DNA from: Enchytraeus crypticus
Taxonomy: Eukaryota; Annelida; Clitellata; Enchytraeida; Enchytraeidae
DNA: 64,000 nucleotides
Direction: 5' to 3'
NCBI GenBank assembly: GCA_905160935.1
Contig: CAJHZI010000513.1
Span: 186,001-250,000 of the forward strand
The position numbers and the translations under genes are program-made. Below, in pieces: positions 7,281 to 59,206 of the stretch (the stretch's first letter is position 1; each line of letters begins with the position of its first letter). A model generated the notes under the pieces. That model saw only the letters and a list, made by a program, of their open reading frames with translations, was not told where the DNA came from and searched no databases.

Positions 7281-10200
7281 TTAATCGAAGTGAAGTCCGC
7301 GGGCTCTGAGGGGATTCGATATCTCGGACTCCATTCTCTCGTTCATCTCAGTGGAGAAGTAGTTTTGCCAGTCTCCAACGATGCCTGGAATAGTTTTCAA
7401 GTAAAATATGTCTACAATACGTCAGTAAAATATGTCTACAACATGTAGCAGTGAATTACGAAATCTTGGACATTCGTAGCTATGTTATAATTTTAAGTAT
7501 TGTGATTGCCTCAACAGCACAGTGGTCAGAGGCGTCGAGAGGTTTTAAATGACGAGATGATTTGATCTATCGTGGATTCGTTTCGAGGCTGCGTTTGTCT
7601 GAAAGTAAAATCTCTGACATTCACAGGACGGAACACGTAAAACGGACAAAATTCTGTAACGGTTTATGCATGTGAAATTAAAATTGATAGATATCAGTAT
7701 GGTTGATCATTTCATAATGATGCGTGCTAATATTACTATTATAACTTTTTAAATGCATAGCTGGTAAAGCTAATGTTAACGTCAGTTTCCTCACTCGAAA
7801 GCGATGTCAGTGACGGGCGAGACCAGGATTTGAACCCAGCCCATACTGATCTGCGGTCGGATATCTTAACGACATCGCCACGGGCTCCAGCTAGTTATTG
7901 TTCATTGTGTCTAAAACAATGAAGGAAGACACACTAACTAAGTAACAATAATGATGATTTCTTTAATGCAATGATGTCCAACGTGCGGCAAAGAAGGAAA
8001 TATTGTTGGCATGCAAACAATAAAAAAGGCAGACTCTACTTGCTGATACTTGAAAAGGCAACGATTACTAATAACCATGGAGGGGAAAGAGGAAATGGGT
8101 CTTAAACAAGCATCTGTGCTTCCTGACCCAGTGTGCCGCTATGTTATGTTGATATAGTTGATGCGCAAAGCGTTAAACGTTATTCAGTTTACATTTAATA
8201 AATATCAATTGCTACCAGTACTGTGTGACTGTTTGAAATTTTACTATCTCATGAGCGAGTATGGGAACTCATAGCGCTATCTCAAGAACAGACATTTAAA
8301 ATTTCATAACGTCGTCTGTCTCTACACGTTAAGCTATAGATACATTCTAAGGGCAGGCGATAGGCTCTGAGCGAGAAATACGTAGCGACTGAATTAACTG
8401 ACAAATGTGTGACTAGGACCCGTTACTTAGAGAAAGAAAGAACACTAGTGAGAGTATAAACGAATGAGAATAAGAGAGAGAGAGAGAATATATGTTTAAT
8501 TTCAATCACAAAATCAATGAATAAGTAACAAACATACAGAGAGAGAGAAAAATATGCAACGGCCGGCGGGGCCACTCCTGCCCCGGCGGGGCCAGTTAGG
8601 CCACTCCTGCCCCGGCGAGGCCAGCCGGGGCCAGCCGGGGCCACTCCTGCCCCAGCCGGGGCAACCCCTGCCCCAGCCGGGGCCACCCCTGCCCCCGAGG
8701 GCCACCACTGCCCCCGTGGCACCCCTACCCCGTCCCTGGCGTAAATAGCACTAATATCTACGCAACTAGCATTAATGCGCTTAAAAAACTAATTCGACAG
8801 GTCCTGATGGTTTATCTAATAAAATTCTACAACTATCCTCAGACTTTATTACTGAACCATTAACACACATAATTAATCGAACTTTACTTTATTACTGGTG
8901 TGTTCCCTGCTAGATTTAAGACAGCCAAAGTTATCCCAGTTTTTAAATCAGGAAAAAGTGACGATGTACAAAATTTTAGACCTATTTCTTTGCTAGACAA
9001 CCTCAGTAAAATTTTTGAAAGACTAGTATATAACAGAATTATTGAATTTTTTGAACGGCATAATACACTTTCTGAAAATCAATTTGGTTTCAGAAAAGGG
9101 CACTCTACAGTAGACGCAATTTTCAGTAGTTTAAATATGATACGTTCTCAGAAAGGCAATAAAAATCATACACTGGGACTCTTTCTAGACCTCAGCAAAG
9201 CATTTGACACGGTCGATCATGACATCCTCCTAAATAAATTAGAAAATTATGGTATAAGAGGTTTACCACTCAGTTGGCTAACCTCGTAACTTACAAATAG
9301 ACAGCAATATTCAGTTATAGGTGACTCAGTTTCTTCCACTAAACCAATCTCAGTTGGAGTTCTACAAGTCTCTATATTAGGGCCTTTGCTTTTCCTAATA
9401 TATGTCAATGATATCCATCATACGTGCCCAGTCCTTTCATTCAAACTTTTTGCTGATGATTCAAATGCCTTTATTAAAGGAAATAACTTGATAGATTTGT
9501 TTGCATGTGCCAATTCGGCAAGTAAAAAAATTTGTAACTGGTTCCAAAGTAATCGTTTAACTATTAATACAGCTAAATCAGCATATATTGTTTTCTTTCC
9601 GTCTACCAATGACGAAGCGTATATACGTGATAACAATCTTACATTATTTATGGACCATAATCAAATTGCAAGAGTTAATTGTATTAAATTCCTTGGTGTA
9701 GAAATTGACGAACATTTAAGATTTAAAAATCATATCGAAAAAATTACAAAAACTGTTAACAGTGCTAACGGATTACTCTTTAATCGAAGAGAATTTATAC
9801 CAATATCCTGTCGCAGGAACTTGCATCTCTCTCTGATATATTCTCGTGTAAGATATTGCATTGAAATTTATGGTTATGCCACTTGGAATGTTTTACAACC
9901 ACTACATATCGCTTGTAACAGAGTTCTGCGAACCTTGCAGGGAAGTCATCGTTACTGTAATGTTAAAGATCTTTATGTTTCTTATGATATTTTGCCAGTT
10001 CATCTATTGCATAAATACTGTATGGCCAAGTTGATTCATAAATGTATTAGCAGTAATCTACCTAAGTCTACAGTATTGGCTAATATATTTGATCTCAACC
10101 ACTCTAACCATAATTATTCAACTAGACTGCTTGACTCCAACTATCTGTTTAAAAAATCCAATGTGTCATTCTATAAATCTTATGTAAATGAGGCGTGTAC

Positions 10201-59206: not shown

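Follow-up and report, generated by a model that had tools for sequence, protein, structure and literature searches.

Tandem arrays of acceptor-junction copies, with donors mostly spared, in genes of Enchytraeus crypticus

In the genes of Enchytraeus crypticus examined here, tandem arrays carry copies of the splice junction next to them. The pattern is one-sided: acceptors allow arrays to grow, and donors are mostly shielded from them. Copies of the gene's own junction were found at 26 of 141 acceptors and at 5 of 133 donors in 22 genes (Fisher P 1e-4), including those of the window, the 64,000-nucleotide stretch analysed here (contig positions 186001-250000 in an assembly of 524,188,772 bp and 802 contigs). 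Frequent blind tandem duplication followed by a one-sided filter, together with an acceptor excess in CCT chaperonin genes that the filter does not explain, is the explanation we favour, at a probability of just over one half.

The genes of the window are a PDIA5-like gene, a cytosolic-type sulfotransferase (SULT) gene and RMDN (Table 1), and the range of 7281-59206 given in the first-pass annotation is correct. They are supported by a Thioredoxin domain match (E 6.5e-19), by PF00685, which matches SULT exon by exon at the window's place on the contig, and by tblastn with human proteins. The RMD1-3 domain match has an E value of 1.2e-4 and scores 21.8 bits, under the cut-off of 26.7; RMDN3 in PDB matches the window RMDN weakly (E 0.032). 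RMDN exon 8 was sought at the window locus and not found. The exon borders drawn earlier are consistent with homology and phase, and the exon phases join without the copies. The gene finder gave 127 and 95 nt for SULT exons 3 and 4; unaided, it returned 127 nt in 8 and 95 nt in 9 of 11 SULT paralogs, and the remaining paralog exons were set to these lengths where AG and GT permitted.

Other features of the window were also recorded. Two 13-nt micro-exons coding KYF (49515-49527 and 41225-41237, minus strand) occupy equivalent places in the repeated thioredoxin domains of the PDIA5-like gene. Reverse transcriptase ORFs are located at 8873-10300 (plus) within SULT intron 5 (RVT_1, E 4.5e-30). 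Long ORFs at 577-2073 and 32797-34287 (plus) resemble membrane receptors encoded by a single exon, with immunoglobulin domains and tyrosine-containing tails; Pfam, run on the first of the two, gave Ig_3 at E 3.4e-4, under the cut-off. Scanning the window with Rfam and for tRNAs gave no matches.

Table 1. Genes, exons and arrays of the window. Positions are those of the window; unit numbers and periods marked TRF were obtained with that program.
Feature	Position	Strand	Description
PDIA5-like gene	59206-37769	minus	24 exons, phases consistent
SULT gene	16317-7281	minus	6 exons
RMDN gene		plus	7 exons located (exons 3-7, 9, 10)
SULT exon 4	11970..12064	minus	95 nt, source of array
RMDN exon 7	26977..27064	plus	
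PDIA5 exon 2	57597..57726	minus	
PDIA5 exon 18	44745..44931	minus	
PDIA5 exon 19	42545..42615	minus	
SULT exon 4 acceptor array	12035..12287	minus	about 4.7 units of 53 bp (TRF)
RMDN exon 7 acceptor array	26659..26989	plus	about 20 units of 16 bp, TTTTGTATTTAAG/GTG (TRF)
RMDN exon 9, 26-bp array	28379..28657	plus	stops 6 nt before acceptor; exon start 28664
PDIA5 exon 2 acceptor array	57694..57847	minus	two copies of 77 bp that include AG and some 31-33 nt of the exon
50-bp array upstream of PDIA5 exon 2 acceptor array	57823..58243	minus	units resemble intron end; AG intact in 3/8 copies
PDIA5 exon 4, 36-bp array	56309..56657	minus	stops 14 nt from acceptor; absent from first-pass annotation
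PDIA5 exon 12 array	50351..50423	minus	stops 13 nt from acceptor
PDIA5 exon 14 array	48573..48945	minus	stops 6 nt from acceptor 48566
PDIA5 exon 15 array	47915..48140	minus	stops 7 nt from acceptor 47907; intron-side copies
PDIA5 exon 17, 42-bp array	45952..46109	minus	stops 22 nt from acceptor
PDIA5 exon 18 donor array	44320..44681	minus	about 7 units of 50 bp (TRF)
PDIA5 exon 19 acceptor array	42615..43437	minus	about 20 units of 42 bp (TRF)
PDIA5 exon 20, 22-bp array	41939..41991	minus	stops 7 nt from acceptor
PDIA5 exon 24 acceptor, upstream arrays of 53 and 61 bp	37933..38291	minus	loose junction copies

The window holds 58 merged TRF arrays with a total of 10,384 bp, and arrays make up 24.8% of the sequence of the 34 modelled introns. 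Minisatellites built from copies of the adjacent splice junction had been claimed in all three genes, and every item listed is present, including the arrays adjoining the acceptors of RMDN exon 9 and PDIA5 exons 14 and 15 and the match at PDIA5 exon 24, which is as loose as had been described. A 20-nt junction matched at 15/20 or better within arrays was counted as a copy at each of 34 acceptors and 34 donors. Such copies were seen at 4/34 acceptors and 2/34 donors: 4 at SULT exon 4, 19 at RMDN exon 7, 7 at PDIA5 exon 2 and 16 at PDIA5 exon 19 on the acceptor side, and 8 at the PDIA5 exon 18 donor, each with a shuffled expectation of at most 0.07; the other donor, of RMDN exon 3, has a single copy, which is a TGAC microsatellite. 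The junction copies of the window are not due to chance.

The units are arranged head to tail with periods of 16, 42, 50, 53 and 77 bp (TRF), and the arrays thus belong to the minisatellites (units of about 10-100 bp). The SULT exon 4 units comprise the intron end, the AG and coding sequence of up to about 30 nt (the YG-W-DHV stretch), and the RMDN exon 7 array extends 13 nt into its exon. At PDIA5 exon 19 the two exon-adjacent units contain ACTAAT, which we take to be a branch-like site, a (TTG)n tract and CAG/G. Each unit at the exon 18 donor holds the exon's final 2 nt together with the donor GTGAGT and flanking sequence. The copies are contiguous genomic sequence across intron and exon and therefore represent tandem duplication over the intron-exon boundary. 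The earlier view that the units are unrelated holds, the five window units sharing matches of no more than 9 bases. One dispersed repeat family, or a mobile introner, is not supported as the source for PDIA5 exon 19, whose unit was the one searched; elsewhere in the genome that unit has matches of only 69-74% on four other contigs, in a search that skips simple repeats.

The sample outside the window comprised 11 SULT paralogs, five protein disulfide isomerase (PDI) loci and three CCT genes, in 297,836 bases of DNA. A stricter rule was applied to all genes: a copy had to match at least 18 of the 24 bases that span the junction (-12 to +12) and to lie on the intron side, no more than 1.5 kb away. 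With just two exon letters copied, the PDIA5 exon 18 donor array falls short of it. Acceptors and donors scored 4/35 and 0/34 in the window, 2/50 and 0/51 in the SULT paralogs, and 13/25 and 1/23 in the CCT genes, for which the test had been fixed before the genes were fetched; the PDI loci, with 7/31 and 4/25, show no difference on their own (P 0.74). Outside the window the totals are 22/106 against 5/99 (P 0.0008). Outside the window, too, unrelated genes carry junction copies. Gene by gene, acceptors were ahead in 10, donors in 2 and neither in 10 (sign test P 0.04). For coding 24-mers, exon starts were copied upstream in 17/141 cases and exon ends downstream in 5/133 (P 0.014). Between 4 and 79 nt of exon sequence (median 18.5) are included in the nearest copy.

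The PDI and CCT exon lists were hand-picked from gene-finder output, with uncertain borders omitted; a weak PDI acceptor (L029 2300) was removed from the final count and its paired donor (2416) retained. SULT paralog exon ends were excluded if AG or GT was missing from the expected position, and paralog G9 was modelled without exon 5, its exon 6 being omitted. Coordinates of L029, L032, L033, L035 and L036 refer to the reverse complement, and those of L030, L031 and L034 to the sequence as fetched. A clear donor-side case is located at L029 4365, where the exon end and donor occur six times with a 61-bp period. At L029 1-1000, the gene finder marked sites resembling an acceptor and a donor in some ten units of an approximately 92-bp array.

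The SULT region of the window (6834-18927) is itself duplicated 36.5 kb away on the same contig (156001-167945), long pieces being 96-99% identical; this duplicate was excluded from the counts. The exon 4 array is identical in both copies (253/253), and other arrays differ in length between them (170 against 961, 717 against 631 and 123 against 160 bp). The identity bears on the suspicion that wrong exon borders or a faulty assembly produced the pattern. The gene finder did once mistake a copy for the real acceptor (at L036 8933, the real start being at about 8979), and the hand-picked PDI and CCT borders come from sequence alone. However, the borders agree in phase, in homology and across the SULT paralogs, and the exon 4 array recurs unchanged in the second copy, although a duplicated assembly could also produce this. 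We consider an artefact very improbable.

The frequency of junction copies was compared with that of copies of random intron positions in 114 introns of at least 200 nt; the PDI set here consisted of 12 introns with both ends sure, so that, for example, the copied acceptors at L030 1074 and 7821 are not part of it. Donors were copied less often than random sites: 0 against 6.6 expected in the window (P 0.0004), 0 against 3.5 in the SULT paralogs (P 0.02), 1 against 2.1 in PDI (P 0.30), 1 against 3.7 in CCT (P 0.07) and 2 against 15.8 in all 114 introns (P<0.0002). Acceptors, in contrast, were copied at 4/34 against 6.1 expected in the window, 2 against 3.6 in the SULT paralogs and 2 against 2.3 in PDI, and at 18 against 14.5 in all introns (P 0.17). 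A generic excess at exon edges in the window is thereby rejected, junctions being copied no more than random points. The CCT genes depart from this, with 10/19 acceptors copied against 2.65 expected (P<0.0002), where the excess comes from three genes and introns are treated as independent. Copy frequency in these genes peaks at the acceptor, the value being 0.74 for 24-mers that begin at -24, 0.53 for those across the junction, 0.32 for those of the exon start and 0.13 for mid-intron. Pooled outside the window, 14/80 acceptors were copied against 8.4 expected (P 0.022).

A process that amplifies exon-intron junctions, as first proposed, thus finds support in the acceptor-centred excess of the CCT genes, which also lifts the pooled set outside the window above random sites, and none when the window, SULT and PDI sets are considered one by one. 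One form of such a process is acceptor-directed mutation: in germline-transcribed genes the 3′ end of the intron would be a hotspot of tandem duplication, through pausing, an R-loop or a splicing intermediate, and junctions would be amplified by mechanism, not left by selection. The CCT peak, the 13/25 copied CCT acceptors of the pre-set test, the contrast between CCT and SULT paralog acceptors (P 3e-6) and the pooled excess speak for it. Against it stand the three sets without an excess of copied acceptors, the derivation of the CCT excess from three genes, and germline expression of these genes, which is an assumption. As a general explanation we regard the hotspot as rather doubtful; for the CCT excess specifically, expression being assumed, it is the leading idea.

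The placement of arrays within introns bears on the same question. In the window, arrays lie within 25 nt of 12/34 acceptors, against 8.5 for rotated arrays (P 0.09), the expectation for periods of at least 9 being 7.0 (P 0.012), and within 100 nt of 18/34 against 11.1 (P 0.003). Within 25 nt of donors there is an array in 1/34 cases against 8.5, and so few are expected at P 0.0002. The property said to be shared by the arrays, a position at an exon edge, is not supported in that form: arrays are nearer to acceptors than rotated arrays, but donors are avoided, and acceptors are copied no more often than random sites in the window, SULT and PDI sets singly. Array coverage of window introns by thirds, from 5′ to 3′, is 0.155, 0.172 and 0.419, and a sign-flip comparison of intron halves gave P 0.003 to 0.08 over 18 TRF settings. 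In a profile of 95 introns predating the CCT set, repeated 20-mers peak at 0.28-0.29 between 40 and 120 nt before the acceptor, against 0.157 in mid-intron, dropping to 0.09 at the acceptor itself and to 0.05 over the exon's first 25 nt.

Array-density profiles of introns of at least 380-400 nt show a higher density between 30 and 170 nt ahead of acceptors than in mid-intron, outside the window too (0.20-0.21 against 0.08, P 0.0006-0.0008). This again agrees with an acceptor hotspot, whereas the difference between the 3′ and 5′ zones outside the window, which is not significant (P 0.15-0.17), does not. Dilution by mid-intron insertions was rejected as the origin of the 3′ crowding, since introns shorter than 800 nt are still crowded overall (0.203 against 0.073 in mid-intron, P 0.005); for such introns outside the window alone the crowding is not seen (0.102 against 0.068, P 0.20).

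Window-intron arrays in the last 100 nt are rich in T and G and poor in C, and (TTG)n or (GATT)n tracts occur at several copied acceptors; (GATT)n directly precedes the AG at L034 8473, L022 4598, L035 5542 and L036 2637, the last two in reverse-complement coordinates. Such tracts could suggest that U/UG-rich or (GATT)n sequence at acceptors slips, starts arrays and drags the junction along. In 26 array-free introns, however, simple repeats amount to 0.046 of the last 100 nt, 0.053 of the first 100 nt and 0.077 of the middle. With no enrichment in the last 100 nt, a simple-sequence seed at array-free acceptors finds no support, and seeding of this kind is unlikely to explain the arrays.

The copies include conserved coding letters: the YG-W-HV stretch of SULT, CGHCKS of a PDIA4-like gene (10 copies), IIHIARNAKDV of a SULT paralog, and the exon starts of the CCT genes. 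The exon is therefore the source, and the direction is from exon to intron. At SULT exon 4 the identity of units to the exon unit drops with distance (96, 79, 72 and 58%), as it also does at L035 6620 and L036 5065; the drop is weak or absent in other arrays.

In 11 arrays with 83 copies, the AG or GT is intact in 71 copies against 67.0 expected from neighbouring columns, and no special retention of the splice dinucleotides was seen. Nor was selection on the AG or GT of the copies seen, retention being at background level. A selected function of the kind proposed, with upstream copies acting as decoy or booster acceptors, is therefore unsupported. It would be in keeping with the complete-looking 3′ splice site in some units, as at PDIA5 exon 19, and with the frequency of copies in the CCT genes, which are presumably highly expressed. 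Besides the background-level retention, the copied coding letters would be superfluous for a decoy, and the nearest decoy would introduce a stop codon in 3/4 of the window acceptor arrays; we consider a selected role hardly credible. Frame-preserving spacing was not seen, the distance to the nearest copy being a multiple of three in 11/26 cases (RMDN exon 7 entered as 16).

Blind duplication with a filter is the simplest account of the junction copies of the window, for which it needs no junction-seeking process. Genes of this genome would undergo short head-to-tail duplications, mostly of 16 to 150 bp, at a high rate. A duplication over the 3′ end of an intron would place a copy of the acceptor, along with between 4 and about 80 letters of the exon's coding start, in the upstream intron. 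Further rounds would extend this into an array derived from the exon, as the conserved coding letters in the copies indicate. The copy attached to the whole exon would remain the working acceptor. Upstream copies, lacking a full exon, would mostly be ignored, probably by exon definition. Ignored copies would then drift, losing AG or GT at about the background rate observed here. Crossings of donors would be far more harmful and would be removed, giving the one-sided pattern that is seen. In the CCT genes an added acceptor bias, perhaps tied to germline transcription, probably acts as well.

Several results count against parts of this account. A blind process with a filter cannot raise the CCT acceptors so far above random sites, and the acceptor excess pooled outside the window and the crowding at window acceptors also tell against a blind process. 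The filter reading is weakened by the PDI set, in which acceptors and donors do not differ, and by the flat identity in several arrays. Simple splice-site logic is roughly symmetric and does not predict shielded donors with exposed acceptors. We advance only tentatively the wider statement that the 3′ splice site is a one-sided duplication hotspot in germline-active genes; about half of the introns of some housekeeping genes would then end in stacks of decoy acceptors to which the spliceosome pays no heed.

One human minisatellite contains several splice donor sites, and several of its array units are reportedly used as splice sites; the gene is IFI6 (6-16). The likeness is that units carry the splice site of the gene. 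The human case concerns one gene and donors, whereas in E. crypticus many genes are involved, mainly at acceptors and with coding letters. Earthworm metallothionein genes are similar in having large intronic minisatellites in an invertebrate gene (PMC12783039). In one clone two extra copies of exon 4, one of them inverted, are absent from the transcript; the passages of that paper on these genes describe no junction-copy arrays and do not present the exon 4 copies as such an array (PMC12783039). Among open-licence papers matched by words in titles and abstracts, no description of acceptor-sided junction-copy arrays was found.

The elementary event, duplication of an intron end with an exon start, is already known from the potato RdRp gene, where an intron was gained by tandem duplication across an intron-exon boundary, the 3′ side of the intron being duplicated along with the 5′ side of the exon that follows (PMC4974935). 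In that account a single duplication led to a new intron; in E. crypticus repeated rounds lead to arrays, with no new intron evident from sequence. If the pattern is general, the genome would offer many natural experiments on how the spliceosome chooses the right acceptor among close copies, and many half-way stages toward intron gain by duplication over an exon border. It would also mean that selection, or mutation, handles the two ends of an intron very differently.
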